Assembly: GCA_026386795.1 (NCBI GenBank)
Contig: JAPLMU010000124.1
Location: 1 to 36,015 of the forward strand
Direction: 5' to 3'
Length of the DNA: 36,015 nucleotides
Source: Planctomycetota bacterium
Lineage (GTDB): Bacteria > Planctomycetota > Phycisphaerae > Phycisphaerales > SM1A02
Part shown: positions 1 through 36,015 of the stretch, piece after piece
Layout: each line of letters starts with the position of its first letter
How positions within the stretch are numbered: the first letter of the stretch is position 1
Position numbers and translations under genes: made by a program
Notes under the pieces: model-generated
What the model saw: the letters and a program-made list of their open reading frames with translations, nothing else
The model's database searches: none
Told to the model about the DNA's origin: nothing

Positions 1-726
1 CAAGGCGCCCCACTGACGCCGCTTGCCGATTGGATTCTCTTTCGCACTGCTCACCCACGCACCATCATCAACCTTGGTGGCTTTGCGAACGCCACATTCC
101 TTTCCGCTGATGACGGCCGCTCGCACACTCAACAAGTCTCGGCCATTCTTGGAGCCGACCTCTGCGCTTGCAATCAACTGCTTGACCACGCCGCGCGCAT
201 CGCGATCGGCAATCCATATGACGCAGGCGGCGCGGTCGCAGCCACCGGCACCCGTAACGATTCTGCATTCACAGAACTCCGCACACTCTTGACTCCTCGC
301 GCCGACGGTCGCAGCCTCGGCACTGGCGATGAGTTCTTCGCATGGGTCGATCGCTACGCGCACCATCTTGCGCCCGCCGATCTTCTTGCCACTGCAGCCG
401 ACGCGACCGGCGATGCGATCGGTTCCGCGCTCCGCGCGTCAGGCACAGGCGATGCCGTTGTCGCTGGCGGCGGCGCGCACCACGCGCGCCTCTGCGCAGC
501 CATCGAACGCGCCGCCAACTGCCCGGTGATTTCGTCAGCCGAGTTGGGCGTACCCGTTTCCTGCCGTGAGGCACTCGAATGGGCGATTCTGGGCGCGCTC
601 GCCGCTGACGGGCTCGATATCGCGCTTCCAGCAGTGACCCATCGCTCGTCCGTCAGCTTCTTGCCCTCGGGAACATGGATTCGCAGCAGCGATCCGATCT
701 TGCCGCCTACCCTGAACGTGACCTGA
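1..726 (+). CDS. anmK: Anhydro-N-acetylmuramic acid kinase, 3' part
   Basis: This frame is open from the first base of the window to a TGA at 724-726, so the start lies outside. AnmK phosphorylates and opens 1,6-anhydro-MurNAc to MurNAc-6-phosphate in cytoplasmic recycling of the peptidoglycan wall. The visible 241 residues match the C-terminal two thirds of the family: QGAPLTPLADW at the window edge, then INLGGFANATF (the nucleotide-binding LNIGGIAN-type motif), a GADLCACNQLLD segment where most family members have DTGPGN.LID, DAGGAVAATG, VVAGGGAHH, and the C-terminal REALEWAILGALA. The DTGPGN-type motif is clearly altered, which I take as lineage variation. The gene ends 71 bases before the response regulator start and need not be functionally tied to it. 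Confidence 0.85.
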   Translation, partial: QGAPLTPLADWILFRTAHPRTIINLGGFANATFLSADDGRSHTQQVSAILGADLCACNQLLDHAARIAIGNPYDAGGAVAATGTRNDSAFTELRTLLTPRADGRSLGTGDEFFAWVDRYAHHLAPADLLATAADATGDAIGSALRASGTGDAVVAGGGAHHARLCAAIERAANCPVISSAELGVPVSCREALEWAILGALAADGLDIALPAVTHRSSVSFLPSGTWIRSSDPILPPTLNVT

Positions 727-797
727 ACACTGCCGCGGCACACTGCGCGCCAGAACTGAATTCGAACCTTGTACACCCGGACCCGGAAGCAAACACC

Positions 798-1511
798 ATG
801 GCAAAGCCATCCGTCCTAATTGTTGAAGACGAGCCAGACATCGCCGAGCTGATCCGCTTCCATTGCGACCGCGAAGGAATGGAAGCCCGCACCGTTGGCA
901 CTGGAAAGGTTGCGCTTGATCAAGTCAAGCGCGAAACGCCAGACCTCTTAATTCTTGACCTCATGCTTCCCGATATCGGCGGCCTCGAAATCTGCCGACG
1001 TCTCAAGCAGTGGCCAGAGACGCGCGAACTTCCCATCGTCATGGTGACCGCGAAGGGCGAAGAGACAGACATCGTGACAGGTCTTGAGATCGGCGCCGAT
1101 GACTATGTTGTCAAGCCGTTCAGTCCACGGATTCTGATGGCCCGTGTCCGCGCCGTGCTCCGTCGCAAGTTGGATGAACAGAACACCGCCGCTGACAATC
1201 GCCTTGAGCGACTCGATCGCCGTTTGGTCATCGACCCCGATCGCCATGTTGTGAGCGTCGATGGCAACGTGACTGAACTCACCGTCACCGAGTTCGGGAT
1301 TCTGAATCACTTGGCGCAACGCCCCGGATTCGTTCGCACCCGAGATCAAATCATCGCGGCCGTCCACGGTCGAAATGTCATCCTCTCGAGCCGAACCATC
1401 GACGTCCACGTCACTGCGCTGCGCAAGAAACTCGGCGAACTCGCCGGCTGCGTCGAAACGGTGCGTGGCGTCGGATATCGGTTCGGAGAATCCCTCGTCG
1501 CCGTCGAGTAG
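798..1511 (+). CDS. phoB: PhoB-like response regulator (OmpR family)
   Basis: A 237-residue two-component response regulator. The N-terminal receiver domain (about 1-120) shows the acidic pair VEDE at 9-12, the phosphoacceptor Asp54 in LILDLMLPDIGG and the conserved Lys in DDYVVKPFS. The C-terminal winged-helix domain (about 140-237) has TVTEFGILNHLAQRPG, a recognition segment SSRTIDVHVTALRKKLG and the closing VRGVGYRF. The frame is open further upstream, but the ATG at 798 gives the normal MAKPSVLIVEDE opening and avoids overlap with the kinase gene before it. The adjoining PhoR-like kinase and pst-phoU genes make it the likely phosphate-starvation regulator; that role is from context plus family, as no Pho box could be identified. 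Confidence 0.9.
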   Translation: MAKPSVLIVEDEPDIAELIRFHCDREGMEARTVGTGKVALDQVKRETPDLLILDLMLPDIGGLEICRRLKQWPETRELPIVMVTAKGEETDIVTGLEIGADDYVVKPFSPRILMARVRAVLRRKLDEQNTAADNRLERLDRRLVIDPDRHVVSVDGNVTELTVTEFGILNHLAQRPGFVRTRDQIIAAVHGRNVILSSRTIDVHVTALRKKLGELAGCVETVRGVGYRFGESLVAVE

Positions 1512-1525
1512 CGTTCCACGCATTC

Positions 1526-2902
1526 ATGCAGCCCACCACGGAAGCAGCTTCGTATTTCGTGCCATGTGTTCTGGCCTCACTCGCAGCCGTCGCCTGCGGA
1601 ACTCTGCTTGCAATCATGATATTTCAGCGCCGCGCTGAGCATCGTCGCATCGCGGCGGCACTCGGCGCACTCGGCGGATACGAATCGAATCCAGTGCGCG
1701 GAGCTCGAGCGGCGGCAGACGAAGCCATTCGACTCGACGGTGCACTCAAAGAACTACGAGCGATCTTGGCGACTGCTCCGGTAGGAATCGTTGCGCTTGA
1801 CTCCATCGACCGCATCGTGACTATCAACCCTGCCGCAGTACGGCTCTTGGATGCAGGTGACCGCCCTGCCGAGGGTCGCCTGCTCATTGAAATCGTTCGC
1901 AGTCCCGACCTTGAAACGCTCATTGCAAGCGCCCGCGAAACCGGTCGCCGCGCAGAGGCCGAATTGCCGTTCTCTGCTGCCGGCGGCGAACGCCGTGCAG
2001 GCTGCTCGGTGGTTCCGCTTTCGCGCGATGTTGGAAACGCGCAACTTCTCCTCGTCCTTGAAGACCGCACGGAGCTGCGCCGTTTGGAATCGCTGCGCAC
2101 GGAATTCGTTGCAAATGTAAGCCACGAACTCCGCACCCCCATCACTTCCATTCGCGGCTATGCAGAAACCCTTGCAGAGAACTTCGAACTTCCGCCCGAC
2201 GCTGCGCGCTTCTCGCAAACTATTGCACGGAGCGCCAGCCGCCTCGGCGCCATCATCGATGACCTGCTGCTGCTCTCTTCGCTCGAAGATCCATCAGCCC
2301 GCCGCGACATCACTAACACGCCAGTCCGCATCGCCGGCATCGTCGCGGAAGCGGTCGAGCAAGTCACCCCTGCCGCCAACGAAAAACGCCTCGCGATCGA
2401 TGTCACCGTCGACCCCTCACTCTGGGTGATGGGAAGCGCGGGACTCCTCGCGCACGCAGTTGCCAACCTGGTCTCCAATGCAGCCAAGTACGGACCCGCC
2501 GATTCCCGAATCACGGTCACCGCCGCTGCCGAGGCTGGCTACGCAGTCATCTCCGTCTCCGATCACGGTCCGGGCATCCCAGAGATTCACCGCGAACGAC
2601 TCTTTGAGCGTTTCTACCGAGTCGATCGCGCCCGCAGCCGCGACTCAGGGGGAACAGGCCTCGGTCTCGCGATCGTCAAACATGTTGCCATGGTTCATGG
2701 CGGGTACGCAGGCGTGGAAAGCCGAACGGATGCCAACCATGGCAGCACGTTCCGGATCCGAATGCCGCTCGCCACTGACCGCGGCGGCAAGAACCTGCCG
2801 ATGGCGACCACGCCCGCGACCCCCGCAAGTTCGATGCAAACACAATCTGAACATAGCGCCGGGACACTGCCCACTGCCCCAGCATCCCGCCGGACTGCCT
2901 GA
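1526..2902 (+). CDS. phoR: PhoR-like sensor histidine kinase
   Basis: A 458-residue membrane histidine kinase. One hydrophobic segment (about residues 10-33) anchors it, followed by a linker helix, a PAS-like domain (about 75-185, starting LRAILATAPVGIVALDSIDRIVTINPAA), a HisKA dimerisation domain with the H-box FVANVSHELRTPITSIRGYAETL (phosphoacceptor His200), and a HATPase domain with an N-box (HAVANLVSNAAKYGP), G1 (VSDHGPGIP) and G2 (GGTGLGLAIVKHV). A Pro/Ala/Thr/Ser-rich tail of roughly 35 residues follows the catalytic domain. It begins 14 bases after the regulator stop. With only one membrane segment and no sizeable extracytoplasmic domain, it probably senses phosphate through the Pst transporter and PhoU, as in E. 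coli; this is inference from family and neighbourhood. Confidence 0.9.
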   Translation: MQPTTEAASYFVPCVLASLAAVACGTLLAIMIFQRRAEHRRIAAALGALGGYESNPVRGARAAADEAIRLDGALKELRAILATAPVGIVALDSIDRIVTINPAAVRLLDAGDRPAEGRLLIEIVRSPDLETLIASARETGRRAEAELPFSAAGGERRAGCSVVPLSRDVGNAQLLLVLEDRTELRRLESLRTEFVANVSHELRTPITSIRGYAETLAENFELPPDAARFSQTIARSASRLGAIIDDLLLLSSLEDPSARRDITNTPVRIAGIVAEAVEQVTPAANEKRLAIDVTVDPSLWVMGSAGLLAHAVANLVSNAAKYGPADSRITVTAAAEAGYAVISVSDHGPGIPEIHRERLFERFYRVDRARSRDSGGTGLGLAIVKHVAMVHGGYAGVESRTDANHGSTFRIRMPLATDRGGKNLPMATTPATPASSMQTQSEHSAGTLPTAPASRRTA

Positions 2903-2952
2903 AGAAACACGCGTCGAATAATCGAGTTTGACACTATCTGAACGAGAACCAC

Positions 2953-3960
2953 ATGAACCACATCCGAGCAACCACCCTCTTCCTCGCAGCCGCCGTTCTG
3001 GTGTCACTCGCAGCAGCACCAACGACCCCGAGCCAAGACACCAAGAGTCTCAAAGGCATCGTCCGCGTTGATGGATCGTCCACGGTCTATCTGATTGCCG
3101 AAGCAGTTGCGGAAGAATTCTCAAAGATTGCACCCGGGGTGAATGTCACCGTCGGCATGTCCGGGACTGGCGGCGGTTTCAAGCGTTTCGGTAACGGCGA
3201 GACCGACATTTCCAATGCCTCACGCGGCATCAAGAAGACCGAGATTGAGGCGTGCAAGAGCCACAAGATCGAGTTCATTGAACTCCCCGTTGCATTTGAC
3301 GGCCTGACCATCGTGACGAACAAGGAAAATACGTGGGCAAAGCAGCTGTCCATAGCACAGATCAAGAAGATCTTCGCCTCCTCAGGTGCGGCCAAGACTT
3401 GGAAGGACGTTGATGCCTCGTGGCCCGACGAAGCCATCAAGATCTACTCCCCAGGAACCGACAGCGGCACCTTTGACTACTTCAAGGAAGTCACCGTCGG
3501 CAAGGAAGGCAAGATCCGCTCCGATATCAGCGTGAGCGAAGATGACAACGTGATCGTGCGCGCCGTCGAAGGCGACAAGAACGCCATCGGATTCTTTGGC
3601 TACGCGTACTTTGTCGAGAATCAAAGCAAGTTGAATGCCGTCAAAGTCGTCAACCCAAAGACTGGCGCCGCGGTTGGTCCATCCCCTGCCACCATTGAAG
3701 ATGCCAGCTACGCGCCATTCAGCCGACCACTATTCATCTACGTGAACAAGGCCTCGCTGGCCAAGCCGGCGGTGGCTGCATACGCCGCATTCGCTCTTGA
3801 AAATGGAGCCAAGCTTGCTACCGAAGTTGGCTATGTCAAGCTTCCTGCCATCATGTACGACCGCGCCAAAGCCAATCTCGCCGCGACGAAACTTGGAACG
3901 CAAATGCTTGACGACAACGGCATGGAACGCATGGGTGTTCTTGCAGATATTTATAAGTAA
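2953..3960 (+). CDS. pstS: Phosphate ABC transporter substrate-binding protein PstS
   Basis: A 335-residue periplasmic phosphate-binding protein that delivers phosphate to the PstCA channel. A signal peptide covers about residues 1-25 (MNHIRATTLFLAAAVLVSLAAA). The mature part carries family motifs: VRVDGSSTVYLIAEAVAEEF, the phosphate-contact loop VGMSGTGGGFKRFGNGETDISNASRGIK, then IYSPGTDSGTFDYF and the IGFFGYAYF segment. The protein resembles the long Planctomycetes/cyanobacterial type rather than the E. coli type. There is no Cys at the signal cleavage region, so it is probably soluble rather than a lipoprotein. It lies 50 bases after phoR and 84 bases before pstC; a stem-loop sits in the latter gap and could set higher pstS mRNA levels. 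Confidence 0.93.
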   Translation: MNHIRATTLFLAAAVLVSLAAAPTTPSQDTKSLKGIVRVDGSSTVYLIAEAVAEEFSKIAPGVNVTVGMSGTGGGFKRFGNGETDISNASRGIKKTEIEACKSHKIEFIELPVAFDGLTIVTNKENTWAKQLSIAQIKKIFASSGAAKTWKDVDASWPDEAIKIYSPGTDSGTFDYFKEVTVGKEGKIRSDISVSEDDNVIVRAVEGDKNAIGFFGYAYFVENQSKLNAVKVVNPKTGAAVGPSPATIEDASYAPFSRPLFIYVNKASLAKPAVAAYAAFALENGAKLATEVGYVKLPAIMYDRAKANLAATKLGTQMLDDNGMERMGVLADIYK

Positions 3961-3969
3961 TCGGCGCCA

Positions 3970-3997
3970 GCGCTCCACCCACCAACCAGTGGGGCGC
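3970..3997 (+). promoter_or_regulatory. Stem-loop between pstS and pstC
   Basis: GCGCTCCAC (3970-3978) pairs with GTGGGGCGC (3989-3997) around a 10-base loop, giving a 9-bp stem with one T-G wobble. No T-run follows, so it is not a standard intrinsic terminator. Such hairpins behind the binding-protein gene of ABC operons commonly protect the upstream message or cause partial termination, which would raise binding protein over permease. That role is inferred from position. Confidence 0.6.
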
Positions 3998-4044
3998 ACC
4001 ACGCTGTCGTCCTCTCCACCGGTTGCGAATGCCCTGCTGAAACT

Positions 4045-5016
4045 ATGTCGAACGCCGCCGAAATCTCAGCAGCAGCCATTCGAGCAGCGGCGGCCAACCG
4101 ACGTGGGATTGCGCGTTCAAGAGCAGCTCGTATTGGCACTGAGCGGATCATTCGCGGGACGCTCCTTGCCTGCGCACTGCTGTCAATCGTGACTACGTTC
4201 ACCATTCTGGTGATCCTGCTTGCGCAAAGCGTTTCATTCTTTGCCATGCCGCAAGTCTCAGTATGGGAATTCTTCACGGGCACCACGTGGGCCCCACTCT
4301 TGGGCGAAGAGAAGCACTTCGGCATCTGGCCACTGATTGCAGGAACGCTCCTCGTCACTTCCATCGCGGCGGCATTCGCTCTTCCGGTTGGGCTGATCGT
4401 CGCCGTCTACCTGAGCGAATACGCGCCATCGCGCGTGCGTTCCATTCTGAAGCCAGTTCTTGAAGTACTTGCCGGCATCCCAACCGTTGTCTATGGATTC
4501 TTCGCGCTTGCCGTGATCACCCCGTTCCTGCACGATCACATAAGCGAGTCGTTTGGAACGTTCAACGCACTCGGCGCAGGGCTCGCTGTTGGAATCATGA
4601 TCCTGCCGATCGTTGCAAGCCTCTCCGAGGACGCGCTCCGAGCGGTGCCGCGTAGCCTGCGCGATGCGGCGTTTGCAATGGGCGGTACGCGCTTCGATGT
4701 CAGCGCCAGGGTGGTTGTTCCGGCGGCGCTAAGCGGAATCGTCGCGAGTTGGTTGCTCGCTATCACGCGCGCCATCGGCGAGACCATGATCGTGGCGCTC
4801 GCTGCTGGCGGGCTCGCGCGCATGACGCTCAATCCAGCGGATGAAGTGCAGACCATGACTGCGTACATGGTGCAGATCTTCACCGGCGACGCACCCGCGT
4901 ATGGAATTGAATACAAGTCGAGCTTCGCAGTCGCCACTGTGCTCTTTGTGATCACGCTTGCACTCACTATGGCAGGCAATCTCTTCCTGCGCGCCTTCCG
5001 CGAGGAATACGAGTGA
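4045..5016 (+). CDS. pstC: Phosphate ABC transporter permease PstC
   Basis: A 323-residue inner-membrane permease, one half of the phosphate channel. Hydrophobic segments are visible at about 33-60 (LLACALLSIVTTFTILVILL), 95-125, 135-165, 180-200, 235-260 and 290-315, the usual six of the family. The permease coupling loop is present as EDALRAVPRSLRDAAFAMGGTRFDV, which contacts the ATPase, followed by LAITRAIGETMIVALAAGG, the conserved RAIGE motif of PstC/PstA. The N-terminal approximately 30 residues are Arg/Ala rich and cytoplasmic. Its TGA overlaps the pstA start by one base, so translation is likely coupled. Confidence 0.93.
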   Translation: MSNAAEISAAAIRAAAANRRGIARSRAARIGTERIIRGTLLACALLSIVTTFTILVILLAQSVSFFAMPQVSVWEFFTGTTWAPLLGEEKHFGIWPLIAGTLLVTSIAAAFALPVGLIVAVYLSEYAPSRVRSILKPVLEVLAGIPTVVYGFFALAVITPFLHDHISESFGTFNALGAGLAVGIMILPIVASLSEDALRAVPRSLRDAAFAMGGTRFDVSARVVVPAALSGIVASWLLAITRAIGETMIVALAAGGLARMTLNPADEVQTMTAYMVQIFTGDAPAYGIEYKSSFAVATVLFVITLALTMAGNLFLRAFREEYE

Positions 5017-6011
5017 TGCACTCTCTCAGAGCACAAGCGCAGTCCAACACCCGGCGCCGGTCGCCGGGAGAGATTGTTGCGGCGGCGGCTCCCGCATCAC
5101 AGTTGGCTCGTCGCGTCGTTGATCGGGGGTTTCTCGCCCTCTGCATCGTGTTCACCGGACTTGCAGTGGTGATCTTGGGAATCCTCCTTGTCACTATCTG
5201 GCAAGACGGACACACGCGGCTCTCCTGGCAATTCCTCAATTCATTTGCGAGCCGCCGCACCGAAGAGGCCGGCGTGCGCGCACCAATGTGGGGCAGCATC
5301 TGGGCGTGCGTGATCTGCGCACTCGCCGCGGTTCCGATTGGTGTGGGAACCGCCATCTACTTGGAAGAATTTTCCAAACGCTCCCGCTTTCGAAGTTTCA
5401 TCCAACTCAACATCGCCAACCTCGCAGGCGTTCCCTCGATTGTCTACGGAATCCTTGGGCTCACTGCGTTCGCGCGCGCTTTCGGTTCGGCGAGTACTGA
5501 TAGCCCCATTACGATCGGGCAACCTGAATCCTTCTTTTATCTACAGCTTCCGTTTGGTCACGGGGTGCTCGCCGGCGGACTGACATTGATGCTTGTTGTG
5601 CTACCGATCATCATCGTGTCCAGCCAAGAAGCACTTCGATCGGTTCCCCGCAGTTTGCGCACCGCCTCGCTTGCGCTCGGCGGAACGCAGTGGCAAACCA
5701 CGTGGAACATCACACTTCCGGCATCGATCCCCATGATCATGACTGGTGCCATTTTGGCCATGAGCCGCGCCATTGGTGAAGCCGCGCCCATTCTGGTGCT
5801 TGGCGTGCCGCTCTTTATTCGCACAACGCCGATCAACCTCATGAGCGACTTCACCGTCCTCCCTCTGCAGATCTACAATTGGTCCATGCGCCAGCAGTCG
5901 GGATTCCATGAACTCGCGGCCGCTGCCATCATTGTGTTACTCGCCGTCCTTCTCACCCTCAACGCTGTGGCTGTGATCATCCGCCATCGCCTGCAGCGTG
6001 CCGCCAGCTGA
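5016..6011 (+). CDS. pstA: Phosphate ABC transporter permease PstA
   Basis: A 331-residue inner-membrane permease that pairs with PstC. Hydrophobic stretches occur at about 45-70 ([20 protein letters not shown]), 95-120, 135-160, 190-215, 245-270 and 295-325. The ATPase-contact loop is [27 protein letters not shown] and the RAIGE motif appears as [15 protein letters not shown]. The start chosen is the ATG at 5016, forming a TGATG junction with pstC; a GTG one codon earlier (5013) is also in frame and cannot be excluded. A 40-residue polar N-terminus precedes the first membrane segment, longer than in E. coli PstA. Confidence 0.92.
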
Positions 6012-6030
6012 TGCAACTTTAAGCATTCCC

Positions 6031-6888
6031 ATGACGACCCCTGCCAACGCACCCCCGCCACTGAATGTTGACATCAAGCCGCCGACGCTTGCAGTGGCAG
6101 TCAGCACTGCCGTCGGCAGTGAAAATCAGCCCGAAGAAATCGCGATCCGCGCGCACGGGCTCAACAGTTGGTACGGCACTGTGCAAGCACTGAAGAGCAT
6201 CTCCCTTGAGATTCCAAAGTGCCGCGTCACGGCATTGATCGGCCCGTCCGGCTGCGGCAAGAGCACATTCCTCCGCTGCATGAACCGGATGAACGACCCC
6301 ATCCCAGGAGCGCGCGCATCCGGCATCCTGACCCTGTACGGCGATGACCTACTCGCCCGATCACTCGATGTGGTTGAACTGCGCCGCCGCGTCGGCATGG
6401 TGTTCCAGAAGCCGAATCCATTCACAAAGTCGATCTACGACAATGTTGCTTTCGGCCCGCGCCTGCACCGGTCTTTCCGCCGCACTGATCTTGACGAGCT
6501 CGTGGAGAACTCGCTCCGCGCTGCAGCGCTCTGGGACGAGGTGAAGGATCGCCTGAAATCAAGTGCGCTCGGTCTTTCGGGCGGTCAGCAGCAGCGCCTG
6601 TGCATTGCGCGCGCCATCGCCGTTGGCCCGGAAGTCCTACTCATGGATGAACCATGTTCGGCGCTTGATCCCAGGTCAACCGCCAGCATTGAGCAACTCA
6701 TCCGAGAGCTTGAAACCAACTACACGATTGTGATCGTTACCCACAACATGCAACAGGCAGCACGCGTCAGCGACCGCACTGCGTTCTTCTTTGAAGGCAC
6801 GTTGGTGGAATGCGGAAGCACCGATCGCATCTTTACAAATCCCGCCAACAAGCAGACCGAGGACTACGTCTCCGGTCGCTTCGGCTGA
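6031..6888 (+). CDS. pstB: Phosphate ABC transporter ATPase PstB
   Basis: A 285-residue cytoplasmic ATPase driving phosphate import. Walker A is GPSGCGKST (71-79), the Q-loop is MVFQKPNPF with the typical PstB wording, the ABC signature is LSGGQQQRL, Walker B is [13 protein letters not shown] and the switch His is in [14 protein letters not shown]. The closing [19 protein letters not shown] is diagnostic of PstB. An N-terminal Pro/Ala/Val-rich extension of about 35 residues precedes the ABC domain. The frame opens at a GTG inside pstA (5998), but the ATG at 6031, 19 bases after the pstA stop, gives a cleaner start. E. coli PstB is about 257 residues, so the excess is this extension. Confidence 0.94.
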
Positions 6889-6913
6889 TTGCACGCTAAC
6901 CTGAGTACGAACA

Positions 6914-30695: not shown

Positions 30696-30743
30696 GCCTC
30701 GTCAGCCGCATGCCTCGTCAGCCGCATGCCTCGTCAGCCGCAT
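30696..30743. repeat. Three perfect 16-bp tandem repeats
   Basis: The unit GCCTCGTCAGCCGCAT occurs at 30696-30711, 30712-30727 and 30728-30743 with no mismatch. The array begins nine bases after the methyltransferase stop and covers the last codons of the minus-strand HEAT-like gene. The minus-strand stop codon (30718-30720) lies inside the second unit. Confidence 0.95.
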
Positions 30744-32211
30744 GCCTGCGCGGTGCTTCGTCCGGCGCTTGATTCTGTAACGCCGAGAGCGCGGGATGCC
30801 AGAGATAGCCAAGAATCTCTTTGAACCCCTCCACCTGCGCTGCTGTCGGCGTCTTGCCTTTGAGCAATTCGCGTTCGATCATATGAATGAGTGAAAGATG
30901 CGTCTGTCTCGGCATTTCAAGAATCTCTCGATTGGAGAATCCCAATCGAGCCGTCTCATAAATCAGTTGTGATATGTCCTTCTCCGGGACCGGCGCAGGC
31001 AAGCGTGCGAATGCCTCCTCGGCCGCGCTACGCACTAACCAGTGGCGATCGAGCCGAAGGTGTTCGAGCGTGGAACGGTCGACCGTGCGGCTCATGGCGA
31101 TACTCAGCCGGACCATCCAGTCACGTGACCGTGCACGTGTCTGCAGCAATTCTGCTGGGCATAAGTCACTGGAGAGAAGTGCGAGGTGCTCAGCGGTGCC
31201 ACTCACCCACGGGGCACACGATCGCTCCACGCGCGTTCGCTTCCAAAAATCGGCGAGCATGAGAGTGCTTTTCGCGGCTTCTGGTCGATTGTATTCCGCG
31301 ATTGCTGGAGGCGCGACGTCCGCCGCTTCCGTGAGTGATGCGAAACTCGCTGCGATCGGCGTGTAATAAATCGGATCACTCATTCGCCGATACGAGAATG
31401 GAGTGCCGTGGCATCGATACGGGATGCCGCAAGGTGATCGACCCATATCCCAGCACCGAATGGCCGCTCGCAATAAAAGGTCAACCGGATCGACACGACC
31501 GGTTCGACCGATTGTTCGGTACGTGTCCATGGCGTGCAACAACTTCGCCTCTGGCGGTACGTGCCTCATGATCCGTGCACTCACATCCTTGCGACCAAGC
31601 AGTACAAGTCCCGCAACAATTGGCGCACTCGGACTCAAGTGGCCCTCAGCAAGCAGCCCACTGATAAATCGATCCCGCTGCCTGTGAAGTTTGCTACGGC
31701 CGTAGTCACTCACCGCGATCGCAAGCGGAACCGTCTCTTGCCAACCGATGCCCGATCCTTCTGGATGGTTCAACCGATGAAGTGCAAGCTCCTGTGCGGG
31801 CGTTCCCATCTTGCGCTGATTCCAGGGTTTGATAAGGACTTCAAGCACACTCTTGGCCGCATCAGCGCGCGAAGCGATATTCCACTGGATGTAATCCGCT
31901 AGATATTGATTGGGATCGCCCTTGCTGGTTGTCACACGCTGCGCGACGCTCATCCACAAACCACCGCCGGTACTTTCGTGTTCGACGAGTGCTTCAAGTT
32001 GGTCGAACTTCAAAGTCCCGACAATCGATGGAGACGCAATGACAGCCAACTGCCACGCGGGATTGCTACACACTTCAACTGGAAAGTGTGTCAGTAGCCC
32101 GATCAGTTTCTCAATCGACGTCGATGGATCGGACGCCATGATGGCGCGCTCTGGTGACTCGGCAGCGCGTGTTCTATCGTCTGGGTATGAATCTGGCCAC
32201 GGATTGTTCAT
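30718..32211 (-). CDS. HEAT-like repeat protein of MoxR/VWA operon
   Basis: A 497-residue, mainly helical protein without a signal or membrane segment. Repeats of the HEAT type are recognisable in the C-terminal half (about residues 370-430): RDWMVRLSIAMSRTVDRSTLEHLRLDRHWLVRSAAEEAFARLP, with the pattern W.VR..A. The N-terminal third includes LTHFPVEVCSNPAWQLAVIASPSIVGTLKFDQLEALVEHESTGGG, which has the VA.NP.. feature of bacterial HEAT/LRV proteins. Probably a scaffold. Last gene of the four-gene operon, coupled by ATGA to the preceding gene. The C-terminal residues HAADEACG come from the tandem repeat at 30696-30743. Confidence 0.75.
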   Translation of the reverse strand: MNNPWPDSYPDDRTRAAESPERAIMASDPSTSIEKLIGLLTHFPVEVCSNPAWQLAVIASPSIVGTLKFDQLEALVEHESTGGGLWMSVAQRVTTSKGDPNQYLADYIQWNIASRADAAKSVLEVLIKPWNQRKMGTPAQELALHRLNHPEGSGIGWQETVPLAIAVSDYGRSKLHRQRDRFISGLLAEGHLSPSAPIVAGLVLLGRKDVSARIMRHVPPEAKLLHAMDTYRTIGRTGRVDPVDLLLRAAIRCWDMGRSPCGIPYRCHGTPFSYRRMSDPIYYTPIAASFASLTEAADVAPPAIAEYNRPEAAKSTLMLADFWKRTRVERSCAPWVSGTAEHLALLSSDLCPAELLQTRARSRDWMVRLSIAMSRTVDRSTLEHLRLDRHWLVRSAAEEAFARLPAPVPEKDISQLIYETARLGFSNREILEMPRQTHLSLIHMIERELLKGKTPTAAQVEGFKEILGYLWHPALSALQNQAPDEAPRRHAADEACG

Positions 32212-33494
32212 GTTGACTTCCTCTTCCTGACTTTCAAATTGTTCACTGCATTGTCACGCGCCACCGCACCGCGCAACGCCGCCACAAGACCAGCAACGAA
32301 TCGCTTGCACTTCTTGAACGATGCGCGTCGCACCGCCTTTGTGCCTTGCAATTCCATGTACCTCGCACGGTTGATTTCAATCATGATGGAAAGGACGCGC
32401 CGGTCTTTACTGTTGTGTTTCAGCGGGACCATCGAACCGGAGTACGGAGCGTCAACACGCACCGACCAGCCTTGTGACTTGCACCACTTTGTCGCAGCGC
32501 GCACTAACCACGCTGGCGTATGAATGCCCGCCGTTCCGATGCACACGTCTGGACGGGGCACTTCCTGATCCGCGTCCATTGCAAACGGCAAGTCAGGGAA
32601 CGTGTGGCAGTCAATCACTAACGCGCGTGGCGCACGCGCCAGCGCGTCATCCACTGACTGCGTGAGCCATTCATGGTGCGGCCGATACCAAGCTGCCAAG
32701 AGCTCCTCCCGCCGCGCTCCACTGATCGGTTCCCGAATCACGTTTCCGTCATGACCACGCTCGTAGAGAACACCCAGCCCGCGCTTCGCCATCGGCTCCA
32801 ACGCGTCGCGCTCGAATCGCTCCGGGTCCACCGCCAGGCGGCTGATTGGGAAGATCAACGCCTGAGTGTTCGGTAGGTTGCTATCGAACAGCTCATCCGT
32901 AAAGTGATCCGTCGACGCTGCAAGATGAGTAGACAATTTCTTGTGGCGAACAACAAACTCACGTTTCAACGAAGCTGGTATCGCCAGGTGGCTGTGCGGA
33001 ATGTGCAGAATCAGCGGTACCGGCTCCTTTGCATCGCGCTTCGCCTTCGCATGCAACACCTCCTCGCGCCGTTGCGTTCGCTGTGCCCGGTTGTACCGCG
33101 GAACCTGCCCGCCAATGGTCTCCATCCAATGCAGATTGACTGACCCGAGGTACCACTGCGCGTGCGGCACCGATCGAAACAACGCGTCGGCAATATCCAG
33201 AACGCCGTACTGCACTGCCCAAACAATCTGTTCCTCGATGCATCCAACTTTATGTACGTCACCGTAATAGAACGAAGCCGCGGCAGTCAGACAATTAGGG
33301 AAACACCGAACGGCCGCCTTGGTGCGCACTGATTCCTTCAGCCGCGAAGCAATATTTTCCCAAGCCTCTGCGGTTGGACAGACACGGAGGTCGGCGGCGC
33401 AGTACTCAAGGAGCGCGCGTGCTTGATCACTTGCTAGTAACGGGTGCGCCGCTGCTTCCGCACTCATATTGGAACCAGCTTTCTTTGCAGTCAT
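32208..33494 (-). CDS. N-formylglutamate amidohydrolase-like protein with extra N-terminal domain
   Basis: A 428-residue protein. Residues about 150-400 fit the FGase family: PVPLILHIPHSHLAIPASL, STDHFTDELFDSNLPNT, PISRLAVDPERFERD, YERGHDGNVIREP, YRPHHEWLTQSVDDAL, LVIDCHTFPDLPF (His/Asp metal site), DVCIGTAGIHTP and VRVDAPYSGSMVPLKH. These enzymes hydrolyse N-formylglutamate in histidine breakdown and are Zn-dependent. The N-terminal ~150 residues (HPLLASDQARALLEYCAADLR, ECIEEQ-type helices) are unlike any domain I recognise. No histidine pathway genes are nearby, so the family enzyme has probably been recruited for another role. ATG 33494 overlaps the stop of the VWA gene; its own stop overlaps the next gene. 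Confidence 0.75.
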   Translation of the reverse strand: MTAKKAGSNMSAEAAAHPLLASDQARALLEYCAADLRVCPTAEAWENIASRLKESVRTKAAVRCFPNCLTAAASFYYGDVHKVGCIEEQIVWAVQYGVLDIADALFRSVPHAQWYLGSVNLHWMETIGGQVPRYNRAQRTQRREEVLHAKAKRDAKEPVPLILHIPHSHLAIPASLKREFVVRHKKLSTHLAASTDHFTDELFDSNLPNTQALIFPISRLAVDPERFERDALEPMAKRGLGVLYERGHDGNVIREPISGARREELLAAWYRPHHEWLTQSVDDALARAPRALVIDCHTFPDLPFAMDADQEVPRPDVCIGTAGIHTPAWLVRAATKWCKSQGWSVRVDAPYSGSMVPLKHNSKDRRVLSIMIEINRARYMELQGTKAVRRASFKKCKRFVAGLVAALRGAVARDNAVNNLKVRKRKST

Positions 33495-34768
33495 GACTGG
33501 CCTCCCATACGTAACACCGTGCCGAACGGAAAGTCCTTTGAAAGCTTCCCGCCTGAAGTAACAACCCACAACACTTCAAGATCCGGTGCGGTCTGCGGAA
33601 AAGTGCCATATCCATCAGTGATGTAGATCACCGTTTGTGAAGCGTTGCTGCTCACGCCCTCCGCTGCCCCCTGCGCCGCAACCGCGGCGAAGAACGGCCG
33701 GAAGTCCGTTCCTCCACCGCCGGTTGGGGACACGAGCGGCCGATTGACGTCGACCTCAAATGGGCCAACGCACTGCGTATCGGCGTAGTGAAGCCTGCAA
33801 CGAACAGTGGGATACGAGGAAACAATGCTCCGCAGTACCCCAAGGAACTCGGAGAGCTGGACGTCGGACACCGAGCCACTGGTGTCGATGCACACATCAA
33901 TATCAACCGATTCCGACTCAAGCGCCTCCACATACAGACCACGCCAGAGGTGACGGCGATCGAATCCAGCAAAGTCATCGGGCGTACGAACCACTGAGCG
34001 CCACAGCGCCGACTTCCAATTGATCTGCGGAGCTTTGGCTTCACGAACACTGCGCAGCAGCGCGGCGGGTAGTGAGCCGTGATCTTGCACGCCCGTCATA
34101 GCGAGCGCGCAAGTCATGTTGGTAGACCATTCATTGACGAGTTTCGCTGATAGTTCGGACGTTCCCATGGATTCATGCGAGTTCTGCCCGTCATCGGGAA
34201 GTTCAACCACGTCACACACGTCGAGCTTGTATCCCTGACGACGTAATGTCTCTCGATCCTTCGAAGCAGAATTCCCGTCATGGACGAGTTTTTCATATAT
34301 CTCCTCTACGCAGAGCGGTGCAAGCCAAAAGTCCTCTATCGCACCTGCAGGCAACTGAAGTGAACGAATCGAACAAACGATCCCGTTGACATGAATGTCC
34401 GCCGCAATGTTCCAGACCATGTGATCCCGAAGTCCACGTCGTGGCACATGCAGCAGTGCCAAGTGAAGTAACTCATGAACGATCACTCCATCTAATTCAT
34501 TTGCATTGAGGGTATGTACGAACGTTGCGTTGAACAGCAGTTCTCGACCATTCGTTGCCGCGGTCGGAATGGTGTTGGTCATCACAATGGGCGCCATCAT
34601 GAGGAGCGCTCCAAAGAATGGGAGTGATTCACTCAGACGAATCTGGCTTGCAGCGATCCGCTTTCGCTGATGAATCCGCTGTGCATCCGGCTCAGCGGCT
34701 GTTGCGATTGGCGCGCTTTCCACGGGCGCCACTGCGCTGGTATTGCTCGTACTACTGGTACTACTCAT
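33491..34768 (-). CDS. DUF2201-type protein: HExxH putative metallopeptidase plus VWA domain
   Basis: A 425-residue protein. A low-complexity Ser/Thr/Ala N-terminus (1-30) is followed by a metallopeptidase-like region with HELLH (98-102) in VIVHELLHLALLHVPR and then DHMVWNIAADIHVN, which fit the DUF2201 N-terminal domain. The C-terminal part (about 280-420) is a VWA fold with a full MIDAS metal site: DTSGS, GGGGTDF and YITDGYG. It lacks a signal peptide and is presumably cytoplasmic. MoxR AAA ATPases and VWA proteins work in pairs; the MoxR gene immediately precedes it, coupled by ATGA. Proteolytic activity is predicted from HExxH, not shown. Confidence 0.83.
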   Translation of the reverse strand: MSSTSSTSNTSAVAPVESAPIATAAEPDAQRIHQRKRIAASQIRLSESLPFFGALLMMAPIVMTNTIPTAATNGRELLFNATFVHTLNANELDGVIVHELLHLALLHVPRRGLRDHMVWNIAADIHVNGIVCSIRSLQLPAGAIEDFWLAPLCVEEIYEKLVHDGNSASKDRETLRRQGYKLDVCDVVELPDDGQNSHESMGTSELSAKLVNEWSTNMTCALAMTGVQDHGSLPAALLRSVREAKAPQINWKSALWRSVVRTPDDFAGFDRRHLWRGLYVEALESESVDIDVCIDTSGSVSDVQLSEFLGVLRSIVSSYPTVRCRLHYADTQCVGPFEVDVNRPLVSPTGGGGTDFRPFFAAVAAQGAAEGVSSNASQTVIYITDGYGTFPQTAPDLEVLWVVTSGGKLSKDFPFGTVLRMGGQS

Positions 34769-35784
34769 GTCGTCACCTGCAATTCGTGATAATCCTCTAC
34801 AAACGACTTAAATGAAGGCTCTGCCAGCAGTGCAACGGCGAGCGGTCCCTGAAGCCCCTTGGACAGCATCGACTGCCGCAGATCGTGGATAAAGGTGCGC
34901 GTCCACTCCGTGGTCATCTTGGACGTCATCCATCGGAACGAATTGACGGCGTGTTCGCCGCTGCGCGCGCGAAGCGCCAGGCTAATGGTGGTGGCGTACT
35001 TGACAGAAAGTTCCGTTGGGCAAGGAACCTTCTCGCCATTGCCTTCAAGAATTGCCTCAACATTTGGCAACTTTTTGTAGAGTTTGGTGAACGCGCTCAA
35101 TTCCGCACTCACCGCCGCACCGACTGCGGAGTCTGCAGACATTCCTGCCTTTAGCAATCGATCCGCCATAAACCACGAGCGAGGCGACGGCCACGCTGGT
35201 TGCGCGGGATCAACGCGATGCAGTAATTCCGGCCGGAATGCGAGAAACGAGATAATGTGTTCCGACACCCCCTGAGCGATCGCATAGCTCTTGAAGCTCG
35301 CCACGTCAGGCGAGATCTCAATATGCGCGAATCGATTCGCGAGCGCCGTCGGCATGTCGAACACCGACGCGCGGTCTTCCTTGCGGTTTCCTGCTGCCCA
35401 CACGAACCAGCCGTCTGGAAGCTGGTAATTGCCGATTCGGCGGTCCAAGATCAGTTGCTGCGCCACGCCCTGCATGCTTGGCGCGGCCATGTTCAGTTCG
35501 TCCAAGAAGAGGATTCCTGCGCCATCGCGCGGCAAGAATTCCGGCGGATACCAACGAGAAATGCCGCCGCCCTGCTCAAGGCGCTCGGGCACTGGCAGCC
35601 CTCGCAGATCCGTCGGCGCAAGCTGACTGACGCGAACATCAACAAATTCAAGCCCTGACTGCAGCGCGGCCTGCGCAACAATGCTGGACTTGCCAACGCC
35701 GGGTGCGCCCCAGATCATCAGGCTAGTGCGAATGTCGTTGGCGACAACGGACGAGAGGTACGCGAGTAATTCAGACGGATTCAT
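34765..35784 (-). CDS. MoxR-like AAA ATPase
   Basis: A 339-residue cytoplasmic AAA+ ATPase. Walker A is GAPGVGKSS (26-34), a pore-loop-like RGLPVPERLEQGGGISRWYPPEF follows, then Walker B ILFLDELNMA with sensor 1 VWAAGNRKED and the arginine-finger region ALANRFAHIEI. The C-terminal lid domain is helical. It most resembles the MoxR/CbbQ-like group that acts as a metal-insertion or remodelling chaperone for VWA-domain partners. First gene of the minus-strand operon MoxR, VWA/metallopeptidase, FGase-like, HEAT-like; AAAGG lies about 9 bases before ATG 35784. Confidence 0.9.
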   Translation of the reverse strand: MNPSELLAYLSSVVANDIRTSLMIWGAPGVGKSSIVAQAALQSGLEFVDVRVSQLAPTDLRGLPVPERLEQGGGISRWYPPEFLPRDGAGILFLDELNMAAPSMQGVAQQLILDRRIGNYQLPDGWFVWAAGNRKEDRASVFDMPTALANRFAHIEISPDVASFKSYAIAQGVSEHIISFLAFRPELLHRVDPAQPAWPSPRSWFMADRLLKAGMSADSAVGAAVSAELSAFTKLYKKLPNVEAILEGNGEKVPCPTELSVKYATTISLALRARSGEHAVNSFRWMTSKMTTEWTRTFIHDLRQSMLSKGLQGPLAVALLAEPSFKSFVEDYHELQVTT

Positions 35785-35848
35785 GTGACGGGGCCTTTCA
35801 AACGTGAGTAGTCATTCCAAAGCGCGTGCGCGACAAACAACAACCAAC

Positions 35849-35867
35849 CGCCCGCAACGAGCGGGCG
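35849..35867. repeat. Perfect 7-bp inverted repeat upstream of MoxR operon
   Basis: CGCCCGC (35849-35855) and GCGGGCG (35861-35867) flank the five-base loop AACGA, 65 bases upstream of the MoxR start. With no T-run it is more likely a leader structure or an operator than a terminator; its function is not known. Confidence 0.5.
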
Positions 35868-35909
35868 ATTCCGAAGAGCGCATGCAGAAATTGGATGAAC
35901 ACCACGCGA

Positions 35910-36015
35910 GACCTTGAAGTCTTGAGCCGCGGGGCCAGTGAGGCCTCGTGACGCAAGACGTGCAGATCTTGAGCCGCGAGACCAGCGAGGTCGCGCGACA
36001 TCAAGACCTTGAACG
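35910..36015. repeat. Imperfect 47-48 bp tandem repeats, cut by window end
   Basis: Two full units (35910-35956 and 35957-36004) and the start of a third (from 36005) share GACCTTGAA- or GACGTGCAG-type openings followed by TCTTGAGCCGCG, a CCAG.GAGG core and a CAAGAC end. Within unit one GTCTTG (35919-35924) pairs with CAAGAC (35954-35959) across an imperfect stem with loop around AGTGA; unit two holds a similar imperfect stem. The array continues past the window. Confidence 0.7.

Follow-up and report, generated by a model that had tools for sequence, protein, structure and literature searches.

MoxR-type AAA+ ATPases working with VWA proteins form widespread machines, but for few of them is a client known. 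In the literature searched, DUF2201 proteins hardly appear. In jumbo phages, a MoxR paired with a VWA protein bearing an N-terminal metallopeptidase has already been described (the group 2.2 MoxR-vWA pair, PHROG 1297/1314; PMC7824862), and the MoxR-vWA ternary conflict systems, known in planctomycetes, join MoxR and vWA to a third protein (PMC7159879). Here, we examine a 36,015-nucleotide stretch of Phycisphaerales DNA (Planctomycetota bacterium, assembly GCA_026386795.1, contig JAPLMU010000124.1, positions 1 to 36,015; hereafter the window), whose minus strand carries an operon of four confirmed open reading frames (ORFs) encoding, in order, a MoxR ATPase, a DUF2201 protein, an FGase-like amidohydrolase and a HEAT-like protein. 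In relatives, the operon follows an RNA of the SAM-I/IV riboswitch type, and we consider it about evenly balanced whether this is an S-adenosylmethionine (SAM)-responsive operon for an AAA+/metallopeptidase remodelling machine.

With the jumbo-phage pair the operon shares two families, arranged in the same order, and the combination of HExxH with VWA, but it is chromosomal, occupies a fixed locus, has a riboswitch leader in relatives, and adds FGase-like and HEAT-like partners that were not found in 80 viral loci. MoxR and a vWA protein are likewise common to the ternary conflict systems, whereas the four proteins here include no VMAP, iSTAND, FtsH-type or beta-propeller component by Pfam, and PADLOC gave no credible match. 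The FGase-like protein has the fold and conserved motifs of HutG (TIGR02017), yet scores 41.7 bits against that equivalog's cut-off of 278.75, carries an extra N-terminal domain, and has no hut gene for company in the scanned ORFs of the window. Finally, the RNA shares with SAM-I/IV riboswitches (RF01725) the P1-P4 architecture, an uninterrupted P2, an invariant CAACC/GGUG core and, in family f2, methionine genes downstream; it differs in scoring 25-33 bits against a threshold of 41.1, in having a genus sub-variant with altered J1/2 and no top P1 pair, and in preceding MoxR-type operons.

The operon and its proteins

The operon comprises the following features, in order of transcription.

35785-36015, minus strand: operon leader, 3' part; the contig stops short of the position of the relatives' SAM-I/IV-like aptamer
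35846-35870, minus strand: conserved terminator-like hairpin in the leader, a candidate expression platform; the same hairpin was called in the related genome G213, with 10 pairs and a T-rich tail
34765-35784, minus strand: MoxR-type AAA+ ATPase, operon gene 1, 339 residues; Pfam AAA and AAA_5, PHROG 1297
34765-34768, minus strand: ATGA overlap of MoxR and DUF2201 genes
33491-34768, minus strand: DUF2201 protein, 425 residues, with an N-terminal putative zincin domain (HELLH) and a C-terminal VWA-like domain (DTSGS); Pfam DUF2201_N and DUF2201, PHROG 1314
34463-34477, minus strand: HELLH metallopeptidase motif, DUF2201 residues 98-102
33872-33886, minus strand: VWA metal-binding motif DTSGS, DUF2201 residues 295-299, invariant in an 8-sequence alignment
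33491-33494, minus strand: ATGA overlap of DUF2201 and FGase-like genes
32208-33494, minus strand: FGase-like amidohydrolase, 428 residues; Pfam FGase, E 2e-45
33045-33494, minus strand: FGase-like N-terminal domain, residues 1-150, without a match to any known family and modelled as helical with low confidence (pLDDT about 40)
32208-32211, minus strand: ATGA overlap of FGase-like and HEAT-like genes
30718-32211, minus strand: HEAT-like helical-repeat protein, final operon gene, 497 residues; sub-threshold HEAT match and distant homologues at the syntenic locus of genome G008

The 4-base ATGA occurs at all three junctions in the window, G213 and G306, and at both surviving junctions in G267; judged by their sequence, the four genes are translationally coupled. 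The FGase-like gene probably starts at the ATG at 33494, an alternative upstream GTG at 33569 being less likely. Against G213, the ratio of nonsynonymous to synonymous substitution rates (dN/dS) is 0.12 for MoxR, 0.23 for DUF2201, 0.15 for the FGase-like gene (0.14 for its N-terminal 150 residues) and 0.12 for the HEAT-like gene. All four genes, the FGase-like N-terminal domain included, are under purifying selection, and given these values of 0.12-0.23 the four ORFs are real conserved genes.

The operon occupies a fixed place in the chromosome of a single freshwater genus of Phycisphaerales, ‘freshwater’ being taken from the record names of relatives. It is found whole or in part in six genomes of the genus (complete in the window, G213 and G306, cut by the contig end in G267, only partly covered in G249 and G303), and the same methyltransferase and thiolase adjoin it wherever the contig extends far enough. 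Searches of 300 genomes of the order turned up the four-gene set in no other genus, the operon FGase was not found outside this genus in 85,000 species genomes searched with two N-terminal patterns only, and FGase is missing from the other DUF2201 loci examined. In G008, a diverged member of the genus with 71% GC, the syntenic locus holds two HEAT-like genes, convergent with the same methyltransferase, and no MoxR, DUF2201 or FGase. Absence of the FGase-like gene from homologous loci, which the initial annotation named as a refutation, was not observed: all complete homologous operons carry FGase (as does G267 up to its contig end). But the set is limited to one genus and G008 has the HEAT-like component only. 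Upstream, G213, G267 and G008 each have a VWA-like gene whose product bears a DRTGSM motif. A 52%-identity homologue of this gene also occurs in G219, preceded there by the RNA described below (locus L199, 7069-7184, minus strand).

The window MoxR exceeds the Pfam cut-offs for AAA (25.8 bits against 21.2) and AAA_5 (24.3 against 22), falls under that for AAA_3 (21.5 against 27) and matches the ATPase family PHROG 1297 with an E of 2e-81; the AAA_5 score together with the adjoining VWA partner gene identifies it as a MoxR AAA+ ATPase. Its partner scores 102.2 bits for DUF2201_N (cut-off 23.2; E 5e-29) and 52.5 for DUF2201 (cut-off 26.4; E 7e-14) and matches PHROG 1314 (E 1.5e-62), and with both domains over their cut-offs and both the HELLH and DTSGS motifs in place it belongs to the DUF2201 family. 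The addition of HELLH to a VWA partner, initially taken to be unusual, turns out to be the normal and already published layout (PMC7824862): DUF2201_N is Pfam’s ‘putative metallopeptidase domain’, and DUF2201 proteins as a rule combine HExxH with VWA. The window’s own genome encodes another MoxR-DUF2201 pair, strongly diverged at about 26% identity (L037, 1479-3838, contig C38).

The FGase-like protein matches Pfam FGase (PF05013) over residues 160-380 with 156 bits (cut-off 28.9; E 2e-45), which places it in that family, and compared with homologues of about 50% identity it keeps the HIPHS, TDHFTD, VD-ERFE, IDCH and MIEINR motifs. Stand-alone FGases of about 50% identity elsewhere lack the N-terminal domain, for which Pfam and viral scans returned no match; viral scans with the FGase-like protein, with this domain or with a fused homologue as query found no relative. 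The structure predicted for the FGase-like protein from only four sequences has a mean predicted local distance difference test score (pLDDT) of 41, and that for the HEAT-like protein, from only two, has 36 and is too poor for use; residues 1-150 of the FGase-like protein are modelled as helical at low confidence. The initial annotation stands where it described a four-gene unit with ATGA at every junction, an unfamiliar 150-residue N-terminal domain, and the absence of histidine-degradation genes, the last among the window ORFs scanned. G002 encodes a related FGase in which another domain, of about 150 residues, has been joined to the C-terminal end (L038, 5217-6512, minus strand). The HEAT-like protein reaches only 12.2 bits for HEAT against a cut-off of 23.5, and its G008 homologue 20.2 for HEAT and 20.3 for HEAT_2, both under cut-off.

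The leader RNA and its class in the order

About 110 nucleotides before the MoxR start are nearly invariant in four genomes, exceeding the conservation of coding sequence. In G213, G267 and G249, a SAM-I/IV-type aptamer precedes MoxR, and the structured RNA, about 270 nucleotides long (z -5.0 in G213), is situated upstream of this near-invariant stretch. Upstream of the structured RNA lies the promoter-like sequence TTGCAT-N16-TACACT in these three genomes and TTGACC-N16-TACACT in G008, both assigned by eye; a promoter scan with stricter hexamers found none. Among 14 genus genomes searched with the SAM-I-IV model, the sole match at E<=1 was in G008, at the syntenic position directly before the HEAT-like genes, and between this RNA and the versions from MoxR operons the P2 helix carries compensatory changes. 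We are confident, if short of certain, that a riboswitch is linked to the operon in this genus, and relatives with a near-identical leader suggest that the window’s genome carries the aptamer as well. A weak Trp_leader match in G249 was set aside as a resemblance of the terminator-like hairpin. Contigs often stop near the aptamer, leader or operon (at 36015 in the window, and in G306:C76, G267:C39, G249:C139 and several other genomes of the order), perhaps at strong hairpins or repeats.

By Rfam’s own measure these RNAs are not members of RF01725: scores run from 24.8 to 33.0 bits (G213, G249, G008, L196 and L198; 29 for the genus leader RNA) against a gathering threshold of 41.1. The genus RNA belongs to a sub-variant shared with G225, G293, G051 and G391, in which J1/2 ends in GAU or GAA rather than GAG and the top P1 pair is lost. 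A covariance model (R1) built from four sequences and run on 400 genomes of the order found matches in 72 of them. Across 55 distinct RNAs, 97.5% of cells are paired and double-sided pair changes number 186, while shuffling leaves 48 and sliding the partners no more than 31, counts that lean towards the model because the alignment was fitted to it. Moreover, the nucleotides corresponding to the SAM-I ligand contacts are invariant in 58 of 58 RNAs. The class combines a covarying, conserved SAM-I/IV fold, in a model-fitted alignment, with an invariant pocket predicted to bind SAM. It adds to the SAM-I/IV superfamily, in an order with little sampling, members that the Rfam model overlooks at its own threshold. 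Three weak R1 matches (L238-L240) were set aside, the aptamer core being absent from them. At L184, a strong match of the sub-variant RNA (1914-2019, 78 bits) is followed, some 60 bases on, by an ORF that weakly resembles helix-turn-helix proteins.

The genes downstream point to methionine metabolism. At 28 loci, in family f2 and in G156 and G341 of family f1, the RNA precedes genes for a cystathionine-gamma-synthase-like protein (MetB-like), aspartokinase (LysC) and often aspartate-semialdehyde dehydrogenase (ASADH), names read from the sequences and not from a family search. Methionine-pathway genes such as these are typical SAM-riboswitch targets. At 16 further loci, in family f1, the RNA is followed by MoxR, a HExxH plus VWA (DUF2201) protein and MetK, the S-adenosylmethionine synthetase; in examples Pfam confirms the three families, with the metallopeptidase domain under its cut-off. 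The window’s MoxR and DUF2201 belong to another lineage than these MetK-linked proteins, the two forming separate clades with 100/100 support in midpoint-rooted trees. At several MetK-type loci, the start codon lies inside a hairpin, for example GATGTCGTGGAGTCACGACATG, with GGAG in or beside the loop (read by eye), which looks like a candidate translational switch. This conserved inverted repeat around the start codon, 60-150 bases past the RNA, was seen at L196, L194, L187, L188, L191, L208, L199 and L203. MetK-type operons may also contain an extra small ORF with a shared LLHNMGC motif and no Pfam family between MoxR and the DUF2201-like gene (L188, about 5025-5585, minus strand; L208, +1559 to +2068 past the RNA).

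In some genomes, the RNA instead precedes an SNF2/SWIM helicase or a VWA-like gene. The SNF2 helicase with a SWIM zinc finger follows it at L190 (about 5066-6913, minus strand) and L216, the latter also with a window-like thiolase further downstream. At L210, in a genome of family f2, the gene behind the RNA (1815-2810, plus strand) encodes a protein of helical-repeat appearance, HEAT-like by eye and without a Pfam match. An argument for methionine auxotrophy from the absence of MetX is not decisive, since most f2 genomes with the MetB-type operon also lack a strong MetX match.

Proposed function and rival explanations

That one riboswitch class accompanies two MoxR/DUF2201 lineages makes a functional connection with SAM metabolism likelier than accident, and the riboswitch ties the operon to methionine metabolism, not to histidine breakdown or phage defence. 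Under SAM-controlled remodelling, which in our judgement could go either way, low SAM would permit expression and SAM would repress it, through the terminator-like hairpin before MoxR here and through the start-codon hairpin at MetK-type loci. A MoxR hexamer, docked via the VWA domain, would remodel client proteins and possibly hand them to the zincin domain for cutting; the HEAT-like protein and the N-terminal part of the FGase-like protein would provide a scaffold or adaptor. The FGase domain itself may hydrolyse an N-acyl or N-formyl amide, perhaps derived from N-formyl- or N-acyl-methionine or from peptides. More tentatively, the Phycisphaerales SAM riboswitch class may govern MoxR-DUF2201 machines of two lineages, one with MetK and one with FGase and HEAT-like partners, which would serve SAM homeostasis (methionine salvage) by proteolysis or remodelling. 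Salvage as the substrate or purpose is our leading guess, and a doubtful one.

Several observations weigh against this reading. The window’s contig stops at 36015 and lacks the aptamer, and a search of the remaining assembly did not find it. The ligand could differ, because the genus sub-variant falls under the Rfam threshold and is altered beside the pocket. No MetK is linked to the operon in the window’s genus. Furthermore, MoxR, DUF2201 and FGase cannot be essential to the regulon, since in G008 the RNA precedes HEAT-like genes alone.

The strongest rival is that MoxR/DUF2201 acts as a maturation chaperone, activating a methionine-cycle enzyme (MetK, methionine synthase or a methyltransferase) or inserting its cofactor, in the manner of NorQ/NorD, CbbQ/O or cobaltochelatase, with a structural HExxH and with FGase and HEAT as accessories. 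Its appeal lies in the operon shared with MetK at 16 loci, the profile-level resemblance of the DUF2201 VWA domain to a Mg-chelatase subunit, the DUF2201 homologues of several f1 genomes that keep DTSGS without HExxH, and the general description of MoxR ATPases as maturation chaperones (PMC3893208). Yet HExxH is present in all DUF2201 proteins examined at riboswitch loci, suggesting catalysis, and cofactor insertion needs no amidohydrolase; we consider this explanation unlikely.

Much less probable is a defence or damage response: SAM would be depleted, perhaps by a SAM lyase from a phage, and its loss would lift the repression of a hydrolase/remodelling complex. The SNF2/SWIM helicase and VWA-like genes behind the same RNA would fit it, as would the MetK-linked MoxR, which slightly exceeds the cut-off of the bpMoxR model of ternary conflict systems (30.4 against 27; PMC7159879). 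Nevertheless, PADLOC found no credible match, the operon keeps its place next to orthologous genes and is vertically inherited in the genus, and where this RNA fronts MetK or methionine genes, those are housekeeping genes. On these grounds a conflict system was rejected as the leading reading, and of the remodelling/hydrolase complex first suggested for this DNA, the coupled AAA+ remodeller/hydrolase unit is supported and the conflict role is not.

Equally improbable is a phage-derived MoxR/DUF2201 remnant, joined by FGase and HEAT by chance, with the riboswitch belonging to an ancestral HEAT gene only. The genus proteins do sit in a large clade with phage copies and match PHROG 1297 and 1314 strongly, MoxR lies near DUF2201 on the same strand in 69 of 80 viral loci, a virion-assembly role has been proposed for such pairs (PMC7824862), and G008 has the RNA with HEAT-like genes only. 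But that clade also includes other chromosomal copies and shows no close phage sister of the genus group, purifying selection acts on all four genes, ATGA coupling is kept in three relatives, the near-invariant leader continues into MoxR, and the RNA is also linked to a second, independent MoxR/DUF2201 lineage. For the operon as a whole, a phage origin was rejected, as the 80 viral loci hold no FGase or HEAT homologue.

A SAM-homeostasis role for this remodelling machine, if true, has not been described for MoxR-VWA systems in the literature searched: titles and abstracts, with most subscription journals outside their scope, gave no link of MoxR to SAM riboswitches, metK or N-formylglutamate amidohydrolase, and no SAM riboswitch in planctomycetes. 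As the riboswitch names a metabolite, the physiological trigger of the machine becomes testable, raising the questions of whether SAM or methionine controls it and which protein is its target. Elsewhere in the window (675-6888), a response regulator, a histidine kinase, a phosphate-type binding protein, two permeases and an ABC ATPase lie in a row, an ordinary phosphate-uptake-like locus.

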